Virus record (IMG/VR): IMGVR_UViG_3300009285_002043
Span: 1 to 21,720 of that record
Strand: one strand, 5' to 3'
Length of the DNA stretch: 21,720 nt
From: a virus
Within the stretch, counting starts at the first letter, position 1. Each line of letters opens with the position of its first letter. Position numbers and translations under genes: made by a program. The notes beneath the pieces were generated by a model. The model did not search any database. It saw only the letters and a list, made by a program, of their open reading frames with translations, and was not told where the DNA came from. Below are positions 1,092 to 20,988 of this stretch, piece after piece.

Positions 1092-2120
1092 ATGGAGAAT
1101 AATGGGTCGGTGGTTCGCCAGGACATGCCCCTCGGCGAACTCGGGGCGGTGTTTGCACGGAGTGGATATTTCAGCGATGCTCGCGAGGCCGCGCAGGCAA
1201 TTGTCAAAGTGCTGGCGGGGCGTGAACTTGGGTTCGGGCCGATTGCCAGCATGACGGGGATTCACATTATCAAAGGGAAGATGGCGCCGTCGGCGAACAT
1301 CATCGCGGCGGCGGTGAAACGGAGCGGCCGCTACGATTACAAGGTGGCTCTGCTCGATGCTGAACAATGCCGCCTCAATTTTTTCGACAATGGCGAGCCG
1401 TGCGGTGAATCCTCATTTTCCATGGAGGACGCCCGCGCGGCGGGGGTGTTGAGCAATCCGACGTGGAAACAGTACGCGCGGAACATGTTATTTGCGCGTG
1501 CCATGTCTAACGGGGCGAGATGGTATTGCCCCGATGTGTTCGGGGGGCCAGTGTACACGCCCGAGGAACTCGGCGAAGAGGTGGACGAGGAGGGCAACCC
1601 TCAACAGGCGCAGGCCGCCGAGGTCATCCCCTGTGCCGAGACGGCGCCCGCGCTGGCTGCGCCCGAAACGCCTCCTGCATCGCGGCGGCGGTCAAAATTC
1701 ACTGCACCGCCAACGCCCCTCGCAGACGATCCCATGGCGCGCTCGGAGCCGGATGTGGATGCAGCTATCGAGGAGAGGGTCGTCGAGGTGGCCGAGGCCA
1801 TGGGGTTCGCCACCGAGGATGTGACGGACGCGCTCAAGGGGCGCCGCGTTGCGGCGCTGGGGCACGCAAAGGCGGCCGACTACCTGACCGCCATGAAAAC
1901 CAGGGCGACGGTGCTCGGGCAAATCGCCGCCCACTTCGACAAGCCTACAGTGGATGACCCCCACGCGGCTGCGCTGGGCTATCTGGCGGAAATGGCGGCG
2001 GACAACTACCAGGGCAAGCCGTTGCGCGCGCCCACGCAGGCGTGGCGTAACTGGCTCGGTGAACTCAAAGCGGCGGCGAAAAAGAAAGAGGTGACGAACG
2101 ATGACACAGCCGATTTTTGA
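1092..2120 (+). CDS. RecT-family single-strand annealing recombinase
   Basis: A 342-aa protein. ATG 1092 follows GGAGGAG at 1081-1087. The N-terminal 170 residues have the layout of phage RecT-like annealing proteins, with segments GRELGFGPIASMTGIHIIKG, AANIIAAAVKRSGRYDY-like residues and MLFARAMSNGARWYCPDVFGG. These proteins coat single-stranded DNA and anneal complementary strands during phage recombination and repair. The C-terminal half is Ala/Pro/Glu-rich to about residue 230, then a helical tail ends in a basic KAAAKKKE segment. The following genes (coiled-coil protein, SSB, RuvC-like resolvase) form a recombination cluster. No partner exonuclease is evident in the window. Confidence 0.8.
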   Translation: MENNGSVVRQDMPLGELGAVFARSGYFSDAREAAQAIVKVLAGRELGFGPIASMTGIHIIKGKMAPSANIIAAAVKRSGRYDYKVALLDAEQCRLNFFDNGEPCGESSFSMEDARAAGVLSNPTWKQYARNMLFARAMSNGARWYCPDVFGGPVYTPEELGEEVDEEGNPQQAQAAEVIPCAETAPALAAPETPPASRRRSKFTAPPTPLADDPMARSEPDVDAAIEERVVEVAEAMGFATEDVTDALKGRRVAALGHAKAADYLTAMKTRATVLGQIAAHFDKPTVDDPHAAALGYLAEMAADNYQGKPLRAPTQAWRNWLGELKAAAKKKEVTNDDTADF

Positions 2121-2766
2121 TCTCGTTCCTCGCAACGTGCATCTTGAGGAAAGCGCCAGCGTGTTGATTGCGGAGGCGAAAGCCATTGTCGTCACCGACG
2201 ACGACAGCTACGTTGCCGCATCGGAGTTCCTGAAGGGGTGCAAAGCGCTCGAAAAAAACATCCTCGACTGGATTAACCCCCTGGTCAAAAAGTCGCACGC
2301 GGCGTGGAAGGAGGCGAAGGACCGCGAAAATCAGATGACTGGTCCGGTGAAAAACGCCTATCTCTACGTGTCGCGGGAAATGGGCCGGTATGTATCGGAG
2401 TGCGAGGAAGAACGGCGTCGCGAGGAGGCGGCCATTCGCGCAGCGGAACTGGAGGAGGCCCAGGAACAGCGGCTGAAATACGCGATGCACCTCGAAGAGA
2501 GCGGCTTCGCCAACGCGGCAGAAGCGGTGCTTGAAGCGCCGCTGCAAATCGAGACGCAGAAAGTGGAATCGTGGGCTCCGAAAGTTTCGGACACTGCGGC
2601 CCGCGTGACGTGGACCTATCGCGTCGTAGACGCCGCGCTGATTCCGCGTGAGTATCTGATTCCCGATGAGAAAAAAATCGGCGGCGTGGTGCGTGCTATG
2701 AAGGAGGCGACGAACATTCCCGGGGTCGAGGTGTACACCGAAACCAAGGTGCACGTAAGGAGTTGA
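2101..2766 (+). CDS. Coiled-coil phage protein next to RecT
   Basis: A 221-aa protein starting at ATG 2101, overlapping the RecT gene by 20 bases, with AAAGAGGTG just upstream. Residues about 60-140 are long charged helices (for example CEEERRREEAAIRAAELEEA) predicted as coiled coil. The last 60 residues form a compact domain (VTWTYRVVDAALIPREYLIP, then NIPGVEVYTETKVHVR). Proteins of this layout are common beside RecT/Erf-type genes in phages but have no established activity known to me. An accessory role in recombination is inferred from position. Confidence 0.65.
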   Translation: MTQPIFDLVPRNVHLEESASVLIAEAKAIVVTDDDSYVAASEFLKGCKALEKNILDWINPLVKKSHAAWKEAKDRENQMTGPVKNAYLYVSREMGRYVSECEEERRREEAAIRAAELEEAQEQRLKYAMHLEESGFANAAEAVLEAPLQIETQKVESWAPKVSDTAARVTWTYRVVDAALIPREYLIPDEKKIGGVVRAMKEATNIPGVEVYTETKVHVRS

Positions 2767-2767
2767 G

Positions 2768-3211
2768 ATGCCTGTAAATTTACGAATGCCTGACATCAAC
2801 GAGGTGCGGCTGGCCGGTCGGCTCACGGTCGCGCCTAAACTCGAAACATCCGCAAAAGGGACTTCATGGTGCAGGTGCAGGATTGCATCTGGCCGCAAAT
2901 GGACCGGGCGCGACGGCGTCGAACATCAGGACCAGTTGTTTGTGACGGCGACGGCTTTCGACAAGGCTGCCGAAATTCTCGCGACGATGGGAAAAGGCGA
3001 GCCTCTCTACGTTGAGGGCAAACTCGTGTTCAATGAGTGGACGGACAAGCAAGGGGGTGAGCGGTCGGAGATCAACATCGAACTCCGGCGGGTCTTGCCA
3101 TTGTCCTGGAAGGACGGGCCAGTACCGCACGATGCGCCGGGTCCGCAGGAACGTAACACAGGCGATAGCGAGCATGCGGCGGCGATAACAGAGGATGACA
3201 TCCCGTTTTAG
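2768..3211 (+). CDS. ssb: Single-stranded DNA-binding protein
   Basis: A 147-aa SSB. The OB-fold spans residues about 8-115, with INEVRLAGRLTVAPKLETS near the start and the segment EPLYVEGKLVFNEWTDKQGG. It ends in the acidic tip ITEDDIPF, the peptide by which SSBs recruit partner proteins. ATG 2768 has AAGGAG at 2757-2762; an internal ATG at 2786 would give a more typical SSB N-terminus but lacks a good ribosome site. It protects single strands made during phage replication and RecT-type recombination. Confidence 0.92.
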   Translation: MPVNLRMPDINEVRLAGRLTVAPKLETSAKGTSWCRCRIASGRKWTGRDGVEHQDQLFVTATAFDKAAEILATMGKGEPLYVEGKLVFNEWTDKQGGERSEINIELRRVLPLSWKDGPVPHDAPGPQERNTGDSEHAAAITEDDIPF

Positions 3212-3225
3212 GGAGGATATCTGGA

Positions 3226-3543
3226 ATGAGGCAGAAATGTTCAGTTAGTGGCAAGGGCGAATTTGGATGCGGCAATGCCCCGACGTGGCTGGCTGACGAC
3301 GGCCGCTACTACTGCGGCCTACACGACCCTAAGAATGTTGAGAAACGAGCGGCGCTTAAGGCGCAGGACGCTGAAATGCAGCGAATCGAGGCATACCTGA
3401 TCGCCGAACTCCGTCATTGTGTGCGTGCGGCACTGGCCCGCACGTGGGCGGAGCAGCTTGACCGCTACGAGGTATTGCTGGCCGCCGGTAAAGACGCGGC
3501 CGCAATACGTGTTGCGCTGGCAGCCGGAAACGAGAGGGAGTAG
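3226..3543 (+). CDS. Hypothetical protein with possible zinc-binding N-terminus
   Basis: A 105-aa protein. ATG 3226 has GGAGG at 3212-3216. The first 35 residues contain Cys5, Cys15, Cys30 and His33 (YYCGLHDP), spaced like a small zinc-binding module; zinc binding is inferred. The remainder is helical and Ala-rich. It sits between SSB and the resolvase in the early operon. No specific function is recognised. Confidence 0.6.
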   Translation: MRQKCSVSGKGEFGCGNAPTWLADDGRYYCGLHDPKNVEKRAALKAQDAEMQRIEAYLIAELRHCVRAALARTWAEQLDRYEVLLAAGKDAAAIRVALAAGNERE

Positions 3544-3547
3544 TCCG

Positions 3548-3811
3548 TTGCACGTTACGAGAAATGACAGGGGTCAGATCAGCCACGTTTTGGCTCGCGG
3601 CGTTGATGTTGAAATACGGAGAGGCGAAACTGTTTGGATTGTTGCGTTTTCGCGAAAAGGGGAACCTGTAGGCGCTGTGTATCTCCCGCTTGTGGATGTC
3701 TCCGAGATCCCTACTGAAAGTGTTACGTCATTACTGGCGACTGCCGTCGACGCAATTGGGCGGGCGGCGGCTATGCACAATGAAGGGGATGGCTCTATAT
3801 GCTTAAGATAA
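3548..3811 (+). CDS. Hypothetical protein, probable TTG start
   Basis: An 87-aa protein. I place the start at TTG 3548 because GAGGGAG at 3534-3540 lies just before it. The in-frame ATG at 3419 lies deep inside the preceding gene with no ribosome site. The product begins M-H-V-T-R-N-D-R and has beta-like segments (DVEIRRGETVWIVAFSRKGE) and a helical C-terminus. No family recognised. It overlaps the resolvase gene by 13 bases. Confidence 0.5.
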   Translation: MHVTRNDRGQISHVLARGVDVEIRRGETVWIVAFSRKGEPVGAVYLPLVDVSEIPTESVTSLLATAVDAIGRAAAMHNEGDGSICLR

Positions 3812-4257
3812 TCATAGCGATTGATCCCGGAGCACATGGCGCGATTGCCGTATACTACAACGATGGCCGTGTGGGCCGTGTCGAGTGCCATCGGATAGTG
3901 GACGATGGGGATACGCTCAATTTTTTGGTGTCGCAGTCAATGGCCCGAGCGCATGGGCTCGGGATTATGGCCTACGTCGAAAATGTGGGGCAGTATCATC
4001 CCGGCAATAGCGGACCTGCGTCGGTGAAATTCGCTGAGCATTGCGGATTCCTGCGCGGCGTTCTGTTTGCGCTGGCCATCCCCCGGGAAAAGGTCTCGCC
4101 TGCGACGTGGATGAAAGCGCTCGGGACGCTTCCGAAGAACAAGGCCGCGCGCAAGCGCGCGATCAAAGTGGAGATGGCGCAGAGGTATCCGCACCTCGAT
4201 GTTACGCTGGTGAATGCGGACGCGCTCGGAATCCTGACCTGGGCGATGAAACAGTAG
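3799..4257 (+). CDS. RuvC-like Holliday junction resolvase
   Basis: A 152-aa protein with the RNase H-like fold of phage RuvC-type nucleases. It opens with IIAIDPGAHGAIA (Asp9). Glu61 lies in AYVENVGQ, and NADALGILTWA near the end carries Asp141. The family uses such acidic residues to bind two metals and cleave four-way junctions. Here it probably resolves branched DNA before packaging, working with the annealing protein and SSB upstream. ATG 3799 overlaps the previous gene by 13 bases, with AAGGGG ten bases upstream. It is the last gene of this block before a 190-base structured gap. Confidence 0.82.
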   Translation: MLKIIIAIDPGAHGAIAVYYNDGRVGRVECHRIVDDGDTLNFLVSQSMARAHGLGIMAYVENVGQYHPGNSGPASVKFAEHCGFLRGVLFALAIPREKVSPATWMKALGTLPKNKAARKRAIKVEMAQRYPHLDVTLVNADALGILTWAMKQ

Positions 4258-11109: not shown

Positions 11110-11733
11110 ATGCCCACACCGGCAAAACGGAGAGGACGGCCTCGAAACAAAGGCTCCGGCATACGAGATAGGATTAAGGAGCTTCGTCGCGTGCGCGCTG
11201 GCGATCTTGTTACTAATCCTCAAAACTGGCGGATTCATCCGCAGCACCAGCGCGATGCGCTCAAGGGCCTACTTGCGGAAGTTGGTTATGCCGACGCGCT
11301 TATTGCGCGCGAGCTCGACGATGGACGGCTGATGCTGATCGATGGGCATCTCCGAGCGGAAACGACGCCTGACATGGAAGTGCCGGTGCTCGTGCTCGAC
11401 GTGACGGATAAAGAGGCGCAGATAATTCTCGCAACGCTCGATCCGCTGGCCGAACTCGCAGAGAAAAATGACGGGGCGTTGATTCAGTTGGTCGAAGGAA
11501 TATGCTCGAACAACGATGCCGTGACCGGCTTGTTAAATTCCATCGCCGGAGCCGAAGAACAAGGTGAAGGGAACGCGTTGACGTTTTTTTCTCCCGAAAA
11601 AATTCCCACGATGGCCTGGGTGTTAATCGGAATTCCGGTTTTAAGGTTCGGCGAAATAGCGGCAGACATAGAGCGCCTCTCCAAAATCGAGGGAGTGGTT
11701 AGCGAGACGACGATCAATGATCAAACAAATTGA
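11110..11733 (+). CDS. ParB-like nuclease-fold protein (ParB/Srx superfamily)
   Basis: A 207-aa protein. ATG 11110 has GGAG at 11101-11104; the longer in-frame start at 10933 is a shadow of the previous gene. After a basic N-terminus (KRRGRPRNKGSG), residues about 28-115 match the ParB N-terminal fold: NPQNWRIHPQHQRDALKGLL, then LIDGHLRAET holding the conserved GHxR-type motif, then VPVLVLDVTDKEAQIILATL. In phages this domain often accompanies DNA methyltransferases, and here a methyltransferase-like gene follows with a 17-base overlap. Segregation is unlikely since no ParA is present. Confidence 0.8.
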   Translation: MPTPAKRRGRPRNKGSGIRDRIKELRRVRAGDLVTNPQNWRIHPQHQRDALKGLLAEVGYADALIARELDDGRLMLIDGHLRAETTPDMEVPVLVLDVTDKEAQIILATLDPLAELAEKNDGALIQLVEGICSNNDAVTGLLNSIAGAEEQGEGNALTFFSPEKIPTMAWVLIGIPVLRFGEIAADIERLSKIEGVVSETTINDQTN

Positions 11734-12292
11734 TAATAGCAATCTTCCGGCAAAGCTGAAGCTACGGAGGTATTTTCTTGATCGCTACCATCAAGTGGAT
11801 GGATCGGTTTTAGATTGCTGCGCCGGAGACCGGGTCATATGGTCATCGCTCAAAAAAGAGTATCCACACCTCGTCTATCTCGGCGTCGACCACAGAGACA
11901 ACTACGGGGGGGGTACGGGGCGTCTCAAGGCGAACAGTGTGCGCCTATTAAAAAGTAAATTCATTCCCCAAAACATCATCGACATTGACACGTACGGTAG
12001 CCCGTGGGAGCACTGGGAGGCGCTGCTCTGCAACATCTCGCACCCAACGACCGTATTTCTCACATGTGGCTCAGTGGGCAATATAAGCAATATGTCTAAT
12101 TGCGATAAGCGTGCTCTAGGGCTAACGTTTAAGAGGCTTACCGTGCCCATGGCGCTATATCATCCAGTGTTGTTGTGGGCGGTGGATTTGCATCTCGGCA
12201 AAATTTACGACCATGGTATCGAATTAGTGGAGGCCGCAGAAGCCAGTAGTGGAGGCAACGCCCGGTACATTGGGGTAAGATTGGAGAAATGA
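11717..12292 (+). CDS. SAM-dependent methyltransferase-like protein
   Basis: A 191-aa protein overlapping the ParB-like gene by 17 bases. Residues 31-37 (VLDCCAG) form the SAM-binding glycine loop, GVDHR at 56-60 fits the strand that contacts the ribose, and DIDTYGSPWEHW at 89-100 sits where the catalytic motif lies in Rossmann methyltransferases. The typical DPPY/NPPY motif is replaced by DTYGSPW, so substrate and activity are uncertain. Context suggests nucleic-acid modification. Confidence 0.65.
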   Translation: MIKQIDNSNLPAKLKLRRYFLDRYHQVDGSVLDCCAGDRVIWSSLKKEYPHLVYLGVDHRDNYGGGTGRLKANSVRLLKSKFIPQNIIDIDTYGSPWEHWEALLCNISHPTTVFLTCGSVGNISNMSNCDKRALGLTFKRLTVPMALYHPVLLWAVDLHLGKIYDHGIELVEAAEASSGGNARYIGVRLEK

Positions 12293-13030
12293 ATGAACGT
12301 CGTGTATGAGCCAAGAGGAAGGGCCAGGGAGTATTCGGAGCTTGCCTGTAATCTATTCACTGGATGTTTGCACGGGTGCCATTATTGCTACGCCCCCGCA
12401 ATTCGTAGACAGTCCTTAACGCAATGGTCCTCGAGTCCCGAAGCGCGCAAGGACATAATTGCGCAATTGTCCAAGGACTGCGCGAAGCTGTCTTCGTCTG
12501 GTGAGCACGCAGATTCATGGATCTTGTTTTGTTTTATGACCGACCCCTATCAATCAGACAGCCTCTCTCCCGTAACGCGCGCGGCGCTCCAATGCGTTGG
12601 GCAACATGGACTAAAGGCGCAGGTGCTTACCAAGGGCGGCATGCGCGCATGCAGGGATTTCGACGTGCTGAAGCAATACGGCTTTAAGTTTGGCTCTACG
12701 ATTGTTTTCTTCGATGACGCGAAAAGAGCCGAGTGGGAGCCTGGGGCAAGCCCAATTTTAGATCGTATCGAGGCAGTAAAAGAGGCGCATCGACAGGGCA
12801 TCTATACGTGGGTTAGTATCGAGCCGATCATCGATGCCGACGAGGCGTTAAAAGTGATCGATGCCCTCACCGGTCACGTCGATTTGTGGAAGGTCGGAAA
12901 AATCAATCACAACAAAGCCGTTGAGAGCTCTATCGACTGGGCATCTCTGCTCGGTCGGTTAGAGAAGGCGCTGAAGGGCAATGAGCAAAATTACTACATC
13001 AAAAAAGATCTCCGTGCCTTCGCCGGATAA
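12293..13030 (+). CDS. Radical SAM protein (SplB-like subgroup)
   Basis: A 245-aa protein starting at ATG 12293 immediately after the methyltransferase stop, with GGAGAAA just upstream. It has the radical SAM cluster motif CX3CX2C at Cys25, Cys29, Cys32 (TGCLHGCHYCYAP), which binds the 4Fe-4S cluster that cleaves SAM. FCFMTDPYQ and VLTKGG are further conserved features of the spore-photoproduct-lyase-like group. Its substrate in phages is unknown to me. Gene order (ParB-like, methyltransferase, radical SAM) suggests a DNA or RNA modification cassette. It overlaps the small terminase by 50 bases. Confidence 0.82.
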   Translation: MNVVYEPRGRAREYSELACNLFTGCLHGCHYCYAPAIRRQSLTQWSSSPEARKDIIAQLSKDCAKLSSSGEHADSWILFCFMTDPYQSDSLSPVTRAALQCVGQHGLKAQVLTKGGMRACRDFDVLKQYGFKFGSTIVFFDDAKRAEWEPGASPILDRIEAVKEAHRQGIYTWVSIEPIIDADEALKVIDALTGHVDLWKVGKINHNKAVESSIDWASLLGRLEKALKGNEQNYYIKKDLRAFAG

Positions 13031-16550: not shown

Positions 16551-16800
16551 GTGTACGAGTTTCTCGCGGCATGGCATGGCCTGGCAAGGACCTGGCTTGG
16601 CTTGGCAAGGACTCGGACATGGACCGGGCAACGCAAGGCAAGGGTAGTTGAGTTGAATCGTGGTAGCAGCCAACGCCCCATGGGCGATGCGAGTTTTCGC
16701 GGCATGGACCGGGCGTGGCCGGGCGGGACAAGGGCAGGGCTGGACAAGGGCGGGGCTTGGACGAGGACTAGGCAACGCAAGGCAAGGGAAAGGCAGTTGA
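16551..16800 (+). repeat. Intergenic pentamer repeat element R1 (two units)
   Basis: This gap between portal and the next gene holds two units of a dispersed element. Each starts with a short GAGTTT hairpin (CGAGTTTCTCG at 16556-16566; GCGAGTTTTCGC at 16689-16700), continues as a GGCNN-type 5-bp periodic tract, and ends in an 18-base tail found at 16627-16644 and 16771-16788. Between units lies the hairpin CGCCC-CAT-GGGCG (16674-16686). The gene at 16815 has an open frame through it, but that translation is Arg/Trp/Gly nonsense with no ribosome site. Confidence 0.75.
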
Positions 16801-16814
16801 TAGGAGGGATCTTG

Positions 16815-17087
16815 ATGGCAACGTTCGACTCTAAAATGACAGTGACCGTAACGCCAGAACTGGTCGCGCTCGTGGATCGTATTGTGGCGGCTATCGGCGA
16901 GTTGGCGCAGGTCGTCGATGCTCGGACCTGCCCAGAAGCTTCGTGGTACAGATATGAGCTGAGTGCGGCGCAGCGAGTGGCGCAGTACGAGGAGCAAAAG
17001 GAGAAGGCAAAAGCCGCGAGGCCCGAGCCGGCCGCGCCAGTGTCCCCCTCGCCGTTCTACCCAGGGAGCGGTTTTTTCGATGGATGA
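16815..17087 (+). CDS. Hypothetical small structural-module protein
   Basis: A 90-aa protein starting at ATG 16815 with AGGAGGG at about 16802-16808. Residues 8-40 are a hydrophobic-acidic helix (TVTPELVALVDRIVAAIGEL); the C-terminal third is basic then Pro-rich. It lies between portal and the minor head gene, but no family is recognised. It overlaps the following membrane-protein ORF by 8 bases. Confidence 0.6.
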   Translation: MATFDSKMTVTVTPELVALVDRIVAAIGELAQVVDARTCPEASWYRYELSAAQRVAQYEEQKEKAKAARPEPAAPVSPSPFYPGSGFFDG

Positions 17088-17235
17088 CCCACACCGCAGA
17101 CTGAAAGTCGCAGGAGCTACCCTATCGACGGCCCTCGTGATAGGCGGGTGCTACCTGATGCACGTCGGCCTCGGAGTGGTAGTGACCGGCGTCTGGCTAC
17201 TGTTTCTGACGCACGTCGCAACGGGGAAAAAGTGA
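17080..17235 (+). CDS. Small hydrophobic, probable membrane protein
   Basis: A 51-aa ORF starting at ATG 17080, overlapping the preceding gene by 8 bases. After a charged N-terminus (MDDPHRRLK) come two hydrophobic stretches (about residues 11-28 and 31-46) with a short turn, ending in HVATGKK. It could be a two-helix inner-membrane peptide. No lysis genes are adjacent, so calling it a holin would be unsupported. Confidence 0.55.
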   Translation: MDDPHRRLKVAGATLSTALVIGGCYLMHVGLGVVVTGVWLLFLTHVATGKK

Positions 17236-17247
17236 GGACGTAACGCA

Positions 17248-19035
17248 GTGGCTGAGGCAATCATCTCGGAAGAGGAACTCGACGCCATGCTCGCATATGC
17301 GTTAGCCGACGCGGGCCTGCGCATTGCAGATATCTCGAAAGCTGACCTCGCTGTGTGGGTGGCTGGCATGATTGACCGCGTGGAGAACGCGGCCAAACTT
17401 ATGGAGGCAGAATATTACTCTCAGATGGCATCGGCTATGACGGGGGCGGCAGACCCGGCGCAAATTGAGGCGGCTCGCGCAATGTGGCGTGACCAGGCGC
17501 GGATACAGGCAAAAACGCTGACGACAAACATGATTCAGGCCGATCTCAAAACACTGTCGCAGACAATTGCGCAGGGGATAAAGGATGGCGCGCACCCATT
17601 CGAGGTGGCGCGGCGGCTTGATATGGTGAAAGGCCTTGACTCACAGCGGGCGGCGGCACTGACCAAAAAGTACGAGTACTGGAAATCACAGGGGCTGTCC
17701 GAGGAAGTGCTCGAAAAGAAACTCAATCGAGAGCGGGAAAGACTCCTTCGCGAGCGGCGCGAAACGATAGCGCGCACTGAGATGCGGCAAGCGCACGCAG
17801 AAGGCGAAATGCAGACGGCTCTTGCTGAGGGCGCAAAGTACAAGGTGTGGCAATCTACAGGCGACGCGCGCGTGAGCGATGAATGCGCGGCGAACGAGGC
17901 TCAAGGACCTATCGACGCAAAGGAGGCTTTTAGTAGCGGAGCACAGCACCCTCCCGCGCATCCGAGCTGTTTAGTGGGTGAAACGGCCGTTTTTGCCCCG
18001 GATAAGATCGCCGCATTTATCGCCACTTACAGAGGCCCTGTATTCGATATTACCACTGCCTGCGGCAGTGGGTTTACCGTCACCGCGAATCACATGCTCG
18101 TGACGCCCAACGGTTTTGTCAAGGCGCAATCTGTCTGCGAGGGTGATTATATACTCTACTGCCCCGTCATTCAGCGGACAGGATTTTGTAGCCCATATAA
18201 TGATCGGCGTCCATCCCGCATTGATCAGGCAATCGAATCGCTTGCGGAATCGCCGGGCGTGTCTATTCGTAGAGTGCCATTGTCCCCCGAATACCTCCAC
18301 GGCGATGGGCGGTTCTTGGATGGCTATATCGACATTGTAGCGCCCAATGGCTTTTTGCGTGGAGACATTAACTCCGCGCCTATTGAGCATGTTGACAAGC
18401 TGTGTTTCGAGAGGACTGATGCCAATTTGCTTGGACTCGATTGTCTGCGCAATTTTGTGTCTATGCTCGTCGCTCTGCGTGACGCCACGGACGGCGGTGT
18501 GGGCATTCGCAGTGAGAGCTCTGCGTTCGTCAGGAGAAAGGCGCTCCATCCGCAGGAAGTTTGCATCGCTTCCGTTGCGTCGGCAAATGCTGTTTTCTCT
18601 GAGGATTCTGGATATAACAGATCTGCTGGTGCAAAAACGCTTAGCAATGCTCAGCTCGGACTCTCCCTTCCCATATCGAAAGATGACAGCTTCGGAGTCA
18701 ATGTCTGTCCGCGAATATTGAAATCTCGGGATGCCGTTGATGCGCAAAACATGATCCACCCAACATCGAGATGTTCCGAGCGCATTCGCAATGTGCTTGG
18801 TCGATTCTCCGGACATATAGCGATTACACGCATTGTCCGGATAGTGCAACGGGAATTTTTTGGGCATGTCTTCGACCTCCATACGTTGAGCACATTTTAT
18901 CACCTAGACGGAGCACTATCAAGCAACTGCAGGTGCTCGGTGAGCTGGATCGCGTCGGACTCTGCGCGTGACAGGGAAAAGGGGCGGGCGGCGCAGCGTG
19001 CTGAGCAGACGGCGGCGGCGCGCGATGGCGAATGA
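17248..19035 (+). CDS. Minor head protein (SPP1 gp7 / Mu F-like) with in-frame intein
   Basis: A 595-codon ORF starting at GTG 17248 (GAGG about ten bases upstream). Residues 1-240 and 561-595 together form a 275-aa head-morphogenesis protein. They join as HPPAHPS / CRCSVSWI, restoring the HPxCRC motif typical of this family, preceded by RTEMRQAHAEG and STGDARVSDECAANE. Residues 241-560 are the intein. The protein is thought to sit at the portal vertex and aid DNA entry or capsid assembly. Splicing is required to restore the motif. A homing endonuclease runs antisense through the insert. Confidence 0.88.
   Translation: MAEAIISEEELDAMLAYALADAGLRIADISKADLAVWVAGMIDRVENAAKLMEAEYYSQMASAMTGAADPAQIEAARAMWRDQARIQAKTLTTNMIQADLKTLSQTIAQGIKDGAHPFEVARRLDMVKGLDSQRAAALTKKYEYWKSQGLSEEVLEKKLNRERERLLRERRETIARTEMRQAHAEGEMQTALAEGAKYKVWQSTGDARVSDECAANEAQGPIDAKEAFSSGAQHPPAHPSCLVGETAVFAPDKIAAFIATYRGPVFDITTACGSGFTVTANHMLVTPNGFVKAQSVCEGDYILYCPVIQRTGFCSPYNDRRPSRIDQAIESLAESPGVSIRRVPLSPEYLHGDGRFLDGYIDIVAPNGFLRGDINSAPIEHVDKLCFERTDANLLGLDCLRNFVSMLVALRDATDGGVGIRSESSAFVRRKALHPQEVCIASVASANAVFSEDSGYNRSAGAKTLSNAQLGLSLPISKDDSFGVNVCPRILKSRDAVDAQNMIHPTSRCSERIRNVLGRFSGHIAITRIVRIVQREFFGHVFDLHTLSTFYHLDGALSSNCRCSVSWIASDSARDREKGRAAQRAEQTAAARDGE
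17971..18867 (-). CDS. Antisense homing endonuclease (Vsr/PD-(D/E)XK-like) nested in the intein
   Basis: A 298-aa protein on the - strand. The start is the ATG at 18865-18867, with GGAGG (- strand) at 18876-18880, eight bases away; a longer reading from 18903 would begin upstream of the predicted transcript start. Residues 16-46 and 66-95 are two resolvase-type HTH segments (STKHIANALGTSRCWVDHVL; SELSIAKRFCTSRSVISRIL). Residues 111-142 resemble the NUMOD3-type DNA-binding motif. Residues 152-250 are a nuclease core: SPLETQLV (Glu154), YNVDIAI (Asp180), IAVEVFGGQWH (Glu191, His198), then AGWTPIIIWA. This is the fold of very-short-patch-repair-like homing endonucleases. The last 35 residues are antisense to the intein N-terminus. 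The TAA stop is antisense to the intein's second codon. Confidence 0.82.
   Translation of the reverse strand: MPKKFPLHYPDNACNRYMSGESTKHIANALGTSRCWVDHVLRINGIPRFQYSRTDIDSEAVIFRYGKGESELSIAKRFCTSRSVISRILRENSICRRNGSDANFLRMERLSPDERRALTANAHTAVRGVTQSDEHRHKIAQTIESKQIGISPLETQLVNMLNRRGVNVSTQKAIGRYNVDIAIQEPPIAVEVFGGQWHSTNRHARRFRKRFDCLINAGWTPIIIWATKSCPLNDGAVEYIITLADRLRLDKTVGRHEHVIRGDGKPTAAGSGNIEYRASVSGDKCGDLIRGKNGRFTH
18894..18922 (-). promoter_or_regulatory. Promoter of the antisense homing endonuclease
   Basis: On the - strand: TTGATA (18922-18917), a 17-bp spacer, TAAAAT (18899-18894), with TGA before the -10 forming an extended -10 element. Five of six bases match consensus at both boxes. The start point would be near 18887, then GGAGG at 18880-18876 and ATG at 18867. 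The -35 box begins five bases inside the intein end, so the whole transcription unit moves with the intein. Confidence 0.7.
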
Positions 19036-19270
19036 GTTTACCCGGCTCGGCCTGGCCGGGCTCGACGGGGCGAGGACTGGGCATGGCATGGCTCGGGCAA
19101 GGCCCGGACTCGGCAGCGCAAGGCAAGGGTAGTTGAGTTGAATTGAACAGTAGCCAGCGCCCCATGGGCGATGCGAGTTTGTCGTGGCGCGGACCGGGCG
19201 GGACCGAACGGGGCTAGGCGGGACAAGGGCACGGACTTGGCGTGGCAAGGCGTGGTAGTAGTTGAATTGT
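19033..19270 (+). repeat. Intergenic pentamer repeat element R2 (two units)
   Basis: Begins at the TGA stop of the minor head gene (TGAGTTT at 19033-19039). It contains a GGC-rich 5-bp periodic tract, a tail at 19112 onward nearly identical to that of R1, the hairpin CGCCC-CAT-GGGCG at 19158-19170, a second GAGTTT head, and a second tract. A 24-base stretch at 19226-19249 is identical to 20930-20953 in R4. No gene is visible in 19036-19335. Confidence 0.75.
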
Positions 19271-19282
19271 GGCGTATCGGCG

Positions 19283-19322
19283 TATAATGGCGGTGGTTAA
19301 CGGTCAACGGTCAACGGTCAAA
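19283..19322 (+). promoter_or_regulatory. Possible promoter and four heptamer repeats
   Basis: A perfect -10 box TATAAT lies at 19283-19288; the best -35 candidate, TTGAAT at 19262-19267, is only 15 bp away. Directly downstream are four 7-bp repeats: GGTTAAC (19295-19301), GGTCAAC (19302-19308), GGTCAAC (19309-19315), GGTCAAA (19316-19322). They would lie in the leader just before the AGGAGA ribosome site of the gene at 19336. A repressor or activator site is inferred. Confidence 0.45.
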
Positions 19323-19335
19323 ACAGGAGACGAAC

Positions 19336-19926
19336 ATGAGCAAGGCAACTGACGTGAAAATCGCAATCGCAACGCTGGAATCGATGTCCCCATACTCCCA
19401 GAGCAAGCAGTACCGGCTCGATGAAGTGCCGAAAAAATCCGGTGAGTTGCACAAGAACTACGAGATCAGGACGTGGCGCGAGCGGTGCAACGCAAACGGA
19501 GAGGGGAACGTCGTCATCCCGCCGATGGCGTTTTTCAACGCGCTGGTGGACGCGGCGCAGTACTCCGGGAAACAGATTCCCGGCCAGGGCAAGAAAACGT
19601 GGACGGCAAAATTCCGCTCGGGCATCATGGTGAAGGACGACCTCGTGCTACCCGTGAAAAAGGCGGACGTGGAGGGCGAGTGGTTCGATGTTCCGAGCGA
19701 CGGGAAGCGGGGCGGCGGCTCGCGCGTGCCGAAATGTTTCCCCGTGATTAGGGAGTGGACTGGAAAGGCGCCGTTTTATTTGCTCGACCCGATCATCACG
19801 AAGGACGTGTTCGAGGAAATGCTTACCGAGGCGGGGAAATACATCGGGATTGGGCGATTCCGTCCGCAGCGGAATGGGTACTACGGCCGGTTCGCTGTGC
19901 GGTCGATAGCGTGGGAGACTATGTGA
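19336..19926 (+). CDS. Conserved phage protein of unknown function
   Basis: A 196-aa protein starting at ATG 19336 with AGGAGA upstream. Notable segments are SPYSQSKQYR, EIRTWRERC, VVIPPMAFFNALVDAAQYSG, LVLPVKKADVEGEWFDVPSD, LLDPIITKDVFEEMLTEAGK and IGIGRFRPQRNGYYGRFAVR. The Gly/Arg-rich GIGRFRP...GRF end recalls RNA- or DNA-binding loops, but this is only a resemblance. I recall similar uncharacterised proteins in other phages, with no proven role. It is isolated by repeat elements on both sides. Confidence 0.65.
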   Translation: MSKATDVKIAIATLESMSPYSQSKQYRLDEVPKKSGELHKNYEIRTWRERCNANGEGNVVIPPMAFFNALVDAAQYSGKQIPGQGKKTWTAKFRSGIMVKDDLVLPVKKADVEGEWFDVPSDGKRGGGSRVPKCFPVIREWTGKAPFYLLDPIITKDVFEEMLTEAGKYIGIGRFRPQRNGYYGRFAVRSIAWETM

Positions 19927-20121
19927 GTTTCTCGGCGCATGGCTCGGCCGGGCAAGCCAAGACGGGGCCAGGACGCAGATCGGGCAACGCAAGGCAAGGG
20001 TAGTTTAATAGACACGACGCAGCGGCCAACGCCCACGCGGGCGATGCGAGTTTCTCGGGGCCGGGCGGGGCTCGGCACGGCCGGGCAGGGCTCGGCAAGA
20101 CTGGGACCTGGCAACGCAAGG
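19924..20121 (+). repeat. Intergenic pentamer repeat element R3 (two units)
   Basis: Starts at the TGA stop of the preceding gene (TGAGTTTCTCGG at 19924-19935). The 18-base tail is identical to R1 at 19983-20000. The hairpin is CGCCC-ACGC-GGGCG (20030-20043): the stem is kept while the loop differs from R1 and R2. A second GAGTTTCTCGGGGC head, a GGC tract and a partial tail up to 20121 follow. AAAAGGAG then leads to the ATG at 20141. Confidence 0.75.
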
Positions 20122-20869: not shown

Positions 20870-20959
20870 CAGGTAGCAGCCGGAGCGTTTTTCGAGGCCG
20901 GACAGGGCCCGGCCCGGCCTGGACTGGGCAGGGCACGGACTTGGCGTGGCAAGTCAAGG
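20870..20959 (+). repeat. Intergenic pentamer repeat element R4 (one unit)
   Basis: A single, more degenerate unit: a GAGCGTTTTTCGAGG head at about 20883-20897, a GGCCC/GGGC tract, then a 24-base stretch at 20930-20953 identical to part of R2. It ends where a possible promoter begins (20960). No gene is visible. Confidence 0.65.
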
Positions 20960-20988
20960 TTGACATATTGTCCCCAATAGCGTACATT
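20960..20988 (+). promoter_or_regulatory. Possible promoter with a small palindrome in the spacer
   Basis: TTGACA at 20960-20965, a 17-bp spacer and TACATT at 20983-20988 (four of six). TATTG/CAATA arms lie in the spacer at 20966-20979 and could be an operator. The start point would fall at about 20995, leaving almost no leader before ATG 21001, so the gene just downstream could not use its GAGGTGG site. I treat it as tentative. Confidence 0.35.

Follow-up and report, generated by a model that had tools for sequence, protein, structure and literature searches.

A viral head-gene intein with a putative homing endonuclease gene on its antisense strand and predicted expression signals within its splicing blocks

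The stretch of DNA analysed here (the window, 21,720 bases) is the IMG/VR virus record IMGVR_UViG_3300009285_002043. It carries a MuF/SPP1-gp7-like head gene interrupted by an intein. This intein very probably contains an autonomous and complete homing endonuclease gene on its antisense strand, with the control signals of that gene lying inside the splicing blocks. Its transcription, splicing, cleavage, homing and timing are what we infer from this layout, which is kept, with synonymous codons biased towards the signals, across highly diverged relatives.

The intein and its antisense endonuclease gene

The head-gene frame (17248-19035, + strand) consists of 595 codons and matches Phage_Mu_F with 33.6 bits over residues 148-241 (cut-off 29.6), as well as phrog_15127 (head protein). 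Within it, alignment, structure prediction and Foldseek delimit an intein of 320 amino acids (17968-18927, + strand), running from Cys1 to Asn320 and followed by Cys. The block B TxxH motif (T39-H42; 18082-18093, + strand) is kept in the alignment of relatives, in which the intein residues C1, T39, H42 and N320 are all invariant or nearly so. The first residue after the intein is Cys in 113 of 116 non-redundant inteins, Ser in two and Thr in one. Foldseek with the sense protein ranks intein structures first (probability 1.00), identifying a Hint fold, and 36 of 38 sequences match Pfam Intein_splicing at E <= 0.01; the window intein alone reaches 17.9 bits, under the cut-off of 35.8. A profile scan of the sense protein gave no endonuclease match. 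Unlike in a canonical endonuclease-bearing intein, the endonuclease does not share the frame and strand of the splicing domain.

The opposite strand of the intein encodes a protein of 298 amino acids (17971-18867, - strand), delineated by its open reading frame (ORF), profile matches, structure prediction and Foldseek. The ORF spans 897 of the 960 nucleotides (nt) of the intein (93%), both frames are open across the whole intein, and codon boundaries are common to the two. The protein matches the MTES_1575-type nuclease domain with 41.0 bits (cut-off 38.2), preceded by weaker helix-turn-helix matches, and 33 of the 38 members of the antisense endonuclease set match MTES_1575 as well. Its profile match to I-Bth0305I (3r3p) has an E-value of 0.0012, and in Foldseek 3hrl, 3r3p and Vsr (1vsr) lead with probability 1.00 and modest E-values of 0.007-0.02. 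The catalytic segment YNVDIAIQEPPIAVEVFGGQWH (18274-18339, - strand), whose complement encodes the sense motif HGDGRFLDGYIDIV, holds D180 and E191, both invariant in the alignment of relatives. Nuclease fold and acidic catalytic residues together mark the protein as EDxHD/Vsr-like.

The gene starts with an ATG (18865-18867, - strand) opposite the CAT codon of the conserved block-F His and stops with a TAA (17971-17973, - strand) opposite the TTA codon of intein Leu2; both are seen in the sequence and in relatives. We regard this pairing, which a first-pass annotation of the window did not name, as the most telling feature of the locus. Among the 116 inteins, 51 have the endonuclease stop opposite residue 2, 50 opposite residues 3-30, 14 opposite the upstream extein and one at another place. 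No antisense coding sequence is annotated at this gene in the phage and plasmid stretches examined; some further records, H115 and H129 among them, show additional hypothetical proteins at this place.

Predicted promoter and ribosome-binding site opposite the C-terminal splicing blocks

The first-pass annotation had proposed that a promoter and ribosome-binding site for the endonuclease are embedded in the C-terminal splicing motif, and all of the elements it described were located where it had placed them. On the - strand, the -35 hexamer TTGATA (18922-18917) is antisense to the Leu-Ser-Ser codons (CTA TCA AGC, 18916-18924) and is followed after 17 bp by the -10 hexamer TAAAAT (18899-18894). 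With its TG at 18902-18901, the latter forms an extended -10, TGA TAAAAT (18894-18902), antisense to Thr-Phe-Tyr-His codons; both elements were found in the sequence and by promoter scan. The Shine-Dalgarno (SD) sequence GGAGG (18876-18880, - strand), supported by sequence and synonymous tests, is antisense to block-F Leu-His and leaves a gap of 8 nt to the ATG. The signals had been described as opposite block F and the C-terminal Asn. This holds for block F; the Asn codon (18925-18927) sits between the -35 hexamer and the junction. Likewise, the -35 box had been said to end five bases before the splice junction, but on the - strand it begins five bases from it.

Scanned on both strands from 17200 to 19400, the window yields this promoter as its sole sigma-70-type site (10/12 matches, TG present). 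Shuffled DNA yields 1.3 +/- 1.2 such sites, so that the scan alone is no evidence. Of 5000 random recodings that leave the peptide unchanged, 55 reached the window promoter score of 13.5, and 496 retained an SD tetramer together with the ATG.

Conservation of the signals among relatives

Relatives were collected from phage and plasmid records, genome contigs and viral contigs. The antisense protein found, by tblastn, 123 phage records, many within genes annotated as head morphogenesis or MuF, and 21 plasmid records, the best of them inside a phage minor head gene. Together the phage tblastn searches returned 123, 42 and 132 overlapping records, from which selected hits were examined. For the collection scan a nine-row alignment proved too diverse, and two other alignments were used; the best 80 of 110 loci from the last scan were kept. 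Genome contigs contributed seven loci (Lamprocystis, two Firmicutes, Rubellimicrobium, Solirubrobacterales, Gemmatimonadales and Scytonema). In total, 158 loci were scored, the window included and a copy of the window record (L012) excluded; loci found later (L159-L166) stand outside all counts.

A stop in the antisense register is absent within the endonuclease match in 154 of the 158 loci. Three loci have one stop each, and L017 (Acinetobacter phage IME285) has twelve. The endonuclease relative in L017 (455-1348) is free-standing and outside any detected intein, and therefore serves as a natural control; it may possibly represent the ancestor type of the endonuclease. We dropped the four loci with antisense stops (L017, L131, L147, L148), one locus on the same contig as L001 (L036), two without a C block (L001, L035) and two with unresolved ends (L019, L064). 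The remaining 149 of 158 loci, with resolved intein ends, fall into 116 non-redundant groups.

For block F, the null model let synonymous codons follow local usage, given the protein. In 76 of 106 inteins, the codon for the Leu of VY(N/D)L is CTC (GAG on the opposite strand), against 24.1 expected (standard deviation 4.1), and the block-F His is CAT, ATG on the other strand, in 91 of 100 (44.6 expected, standard deviation 4.6). An SD tetramer is found in 56 of 79 GHVY-type inteins, with 16.3 expected. The His itself stands at GHV in 78 of 115 inteins, two residues earlier (HGxV) in 22 and at neither place in 15.

Promoter sites were scored on the endonuclease strand, from the SD to ten codons into the extein, and compared with random recodings that leave the peptide unchanged. 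Sigma-70-type -35 and -10 hexamers 16-18 bp apart are found. The mean promoter percentile over 115 loci is 0.89, with 66 above 0.95; in 576 antisense extein windows used as control, the mean percentile is 0.49 and 5.6% exceed 0.95. In 47 of 115 loci the best-scoring -10 is TATAAT, versus 2 of 576 controls, and a perfect TTGACA/TATAAT pair occurs in 11 loci versus none of the controls. Furthermore, the sense-strand reading of the same DNA scores lower in 105 of 115.

The position of the signal varies with the type of intein. Ten relatives carry TTGACA-17-TATAAT with the -10 at the distance seen in the window, 14 nt before the block-F Leu codon, and 25 of 38 inteins ending in Ser-Asn have their -10 at that same place. 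Among those ending in His-Asn, the commonest -10 position is 33 nt away (32 of 67); there the hexamer frequently forms part of TGTGTTATAAT, complementary to IITHN. In a quick tree, the window belongs to a supported group of 11 that share one geometry, and 23 changes between the three main geometries are required over the tree as a whole. The putative promoter shifts position yet persists. Conservation of both signals, which the first-pass annotation had named as a check, is thereby borne out. Position, synonymous-codon bias and distant relatives all support its proposal that the promoter and ribosome site of the endonuclease are encoded opposite the C-terminal splicing motif. Across the 115-116 non-redundant relatives, the synonymous-level evidence for these predicted signals is overwhelming.

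Selection on the two frames

The two frames were compared in the window intein and 14 relatives, 14 of these 15 inteins ending in Ser-Asn. At the ends (residues 1-60 and 301-320), sense identity (0.55) exceeds antisense identity (0.40), and the three sense codon positions are conserved in the normal order (0.62, 0.76, 0.49). In the middle (residues 81-280), antisense identity (0.49) exceeds sense identity (0.32); the sense codon positions there show 0.41, 0.66 and 0.57, and the least conserved is the first, i.e. the antisense wobble position. Judged by these identities, selection flips between the sense frame at the intein ends and the antisense frame in the middle. The structure predictions divide the intein in a similar manner. 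AlphaFold2 models the antisense protein with a mean predicted local distance difference test (pLDDT) of 86.8, poor only at residues 270-298, opposite the N-terminal block of the intein. The sense protein is modelled confidently at about 1-68 and 281-320, with pLDDT mostly below 50 from 129 to 274. Conservation in both frames is also seen at the sense DFHGDG motif, which may be a functional intein subdomain.

The shared register means that an intein-frame stop is possible only where the endonuclease uses TTA, CTA or TCA. Pooled over the 116 groups, the endonuclease frame contains 4273 codons for Leu or Ser, none of which is one of these three, with 620 expected from extein usage; the groups had been pre-filtered for the absence of antisense stops, a filter that removed just 4 of 158 loci.

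Probable mobility, insertion sites and a second endonuclease family

Queried with the LPSE1 head gene, 406 phage records match, 58 of them over at least 80% of its length. Among 60 matches listed, 30 (H174-H203) lack the intein and align to the two exteins as separate pieces, at identities up to 95.2%. A Phage_Mu_F match in 43 of 60 scanned sense ORFs places this intein type mostly in MuF-like genes, and other sites are also used. Escherichia phage vB-Eco-KMB36 (L164; gene 2060-4030, - strand of the locus) carries the intein elsewhere in the same head gene than Snoke does, with the antisense endonuclease present. In Virus Rctr197k (L161, 2108-3514), a dCMP/cytidine deaminase is interrupted by this intein type with its antisense endonuclease frame; the annotation "putative head morphogenesis protein" was probably drawn to the intein. 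The host gene in L075 is probably a terminase (E 3.5e-4, below Pfam's cut-off). Presence and absence of the insert in close phages, together with varied sites, form the pattern that a homing element would be expected to show; the presence and absence bear on homing only indirectly. In an unverified record of Salmonella phage GE_vB_HIL (L166), frameshifts break both the intein and the antisense endonuclease frames; these are perhaps sequencing errors.

The Gordonia phages Lennon and Barsten (L159 and L160, 2375-3199) have an intein of another kind at the MuF site that is also occupied in other Gordonia relatives. The antisense-register ORF of this intein matches the LAGLIDADG enzyme I-MsoI weakly (E 7e-4), in conflict with a match to PHROG 5046, "HNH endonuclease" (E 2e-15), and Pfam gave no name for it. 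The LAGLIDADG-like label rests partly on the FIDGEG motif, which we take to be of that family. When the two phages are compared, mid-intein conservation is higher in the antisense frame, and conservation at the intein ends is higher in the sense frame; a string search for upstream signals and a promoter in this family gave nothing. A second, unrelated endonuclease in the same layout suggests that the antisense arrangement may have arisen more than once, on the thin basis of two close phages.

Other features of the window

The head gene lies downstream of a terminase gene and of a portal gene of SPP1 type, the latter matched weakly. Further upstream of the terminase, a radical-SAM-like gene (12293-13030; 28.0 bits, cut-off 29.5) adjoins a gene without a Pfam match (11717-12292). 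Degenerate G-rich direct repeats of 31-64 nt are present at 16553-16822, 19011-19256, 19921-20121 and 20896-20960, largely between late genes; the blocks they have in common are near GCAAGGCAAGGG and GGGCGATGCGAGTTT.

Discussion

We postulate that reading of the head gene on the + strand continues across the intein and that the precursor splices. Host polymerase would transcribe the endonuclease from the - strand, with no dependence on the late head operon and with a sigma-70-type promoter, SD and start supplied by the reverse complement of the C-terminal blocks F and G. The endonuclease gene would then be read codon-on-codon antisense through the splicing domain and stop at the N-terminal block. 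Its product would cut intein-free alleles, and the whole element could spread by homing. The advantage we infer is expression of the endonuclease apart from the late head operon.

Several points weigh against this interpretation. In the window taken by itself, the improbability of the promoter (about 0.01) and of SD plus ATG (about 0.1) is modest and suggestive. Promoter scoring relied on the E. coli consensus, which may not fit most of the hosts. Because the loci share descent, counts over relatives do not represent independent events. The 15 of 115 inteins with His at neither place imply that their endonuclease must start elsewhere. Finally, both hexamers lie within the intein in 68 of 115 loci, the whole site lies in the extein in 2, and the best -35 is in or across the extein in 45, so that the promoter is not always self-contained. 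This last point, together with the 49 of 115 loci at or under the 95th percentile of the null, lends something to the idea that the antisense endonuclease is real but transcribed from elsewhere, by a downstream - strand promoter or by read-through, with the boxes in the intein of minor importance. Against it stand the mean percentile of 0.89, the perfect TATAAT in 47 of 115 loci and the single geometry throughout the supported group of 11 around the window, and we consider it improbable.

The signals could also be by-products of conserved peptides, as His-Val-Tyr-Asp-Leu and Ser-Ser-Asn, when reversed, resemble SD, ATG and -35. The peptide motifs do predispose to such signals, as seen in the 496 of 5000 recodings of the window peptide in which SD plus ATG survive. 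With the peptides held constant, however, synonymous codon choice strongly favours the signals, and the promoter hexamers shift on the tree, with 23 changes over three geometries, yet remain; chance echoes of the protein are a most improbable account. Nor do we give much credence to an antisense promoter retained for an RNA that damps the head gene, with the endonuclease incidental or dead. Convergent overlap with a late gene would make interference plausible, and the first-pass annotation had suggested that antisense transcription across the head gene may reduce the amount of head protein, but the conserved frame in mid-intein is that of the antisense protein, with invariant D180 and E191. 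The SD and start codon, moreover, are under selection, and this counts against an RNA-only role because an untranslated RNA would not need them. We therefore retain the interpretation of an intein that carries its own antisense endonuclease gene.

Beyond the window, it is likely that these inteins form a widespread and unrecognised class, in which one strand encodes the splicing protein and the other a codon-on-codon antisense nuclease with promoter, SD, start and stop. Such a class would comprise at least two unrelated nuclease families (EDxHD-like and LAGLIDADG-like), and the motifs GHVYDL, SLYxANGxxSSN and DFHGDG would in part be shadows of the antisense gene. If true, this would be a clear case of two unrelated proteins and the signals for transcription and translation residing in the same bases, on opposite strands, across highly diverged relatives. 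It would explain how an intein could have its endonuclease made separately from a late structural protein, and it shows why annotation misses such genes. It also carries a warning, as motifs conserved in one frame can echo the other strand.

Canonical large inteins of the PI-SceI type contain an in-frame homing endonuclease between the splicing blocks. The inteins described here resemble them in their Hint-type blocks at both ends, the endonuclease between these and the insertion at a conserved motif before Cys. Unlike in the PI-SceI type, the endonuclease is a separate opposite-strand gene with its own putative promoter, SD, start and stop, and the sense middle is predicted to be mostly unstructured. 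Dassa et al. reportedly described, in 2009, split inteins whose two halves are separated by a free-standing EDxHD gene. They share the partnership of an intein with an unfused endonuclease; here, in contrast, the intein is contiguous and the endonuclease wholly antisense.

In a literature search of titles and abstract openings, an antisense endonuclease inside an intein was not found; a preprint on actinobacteriophage inteins of "non-canonical architecture" (10.1101/2025.01.02.630785) could cover part of it. Annotated head-gene inteins are described for Salmonella and Escherichia phages of the Guernseyvirinae, and the passages on them in PMC6776784, PMC11162368 and PMC8425127 make no mention of an antisense endonuclease. 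These are head-gene inteins in phages in which the antisense arrangement was found here.

Hidden HNH insertions of the ShiLan type in phage methylases were the nearest case met in that literature search; according to passages in PMC11855218, they have a same-strand frame, with splicing domain and ribosome-binding site not detected. Common to both systems is a second endonuclease frame in an insertion that leaves the host frame open, the sense product being predicted poorly and the hidden frame well. The present gene differs from the ShiLan type in being antisense and within an intein, with SD and promoter under synonymous selection. Finally, the EDxHD/Vsr-like I-Bth0305I (PDB 3r3p), as presented in parts of PMC3943268, shares the nuclease-domain fold and the joining of a nuclease to DNA-binding modules. 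I-Bth0305I is an intron protein, whereas the gene described here lies antisense within an intein.
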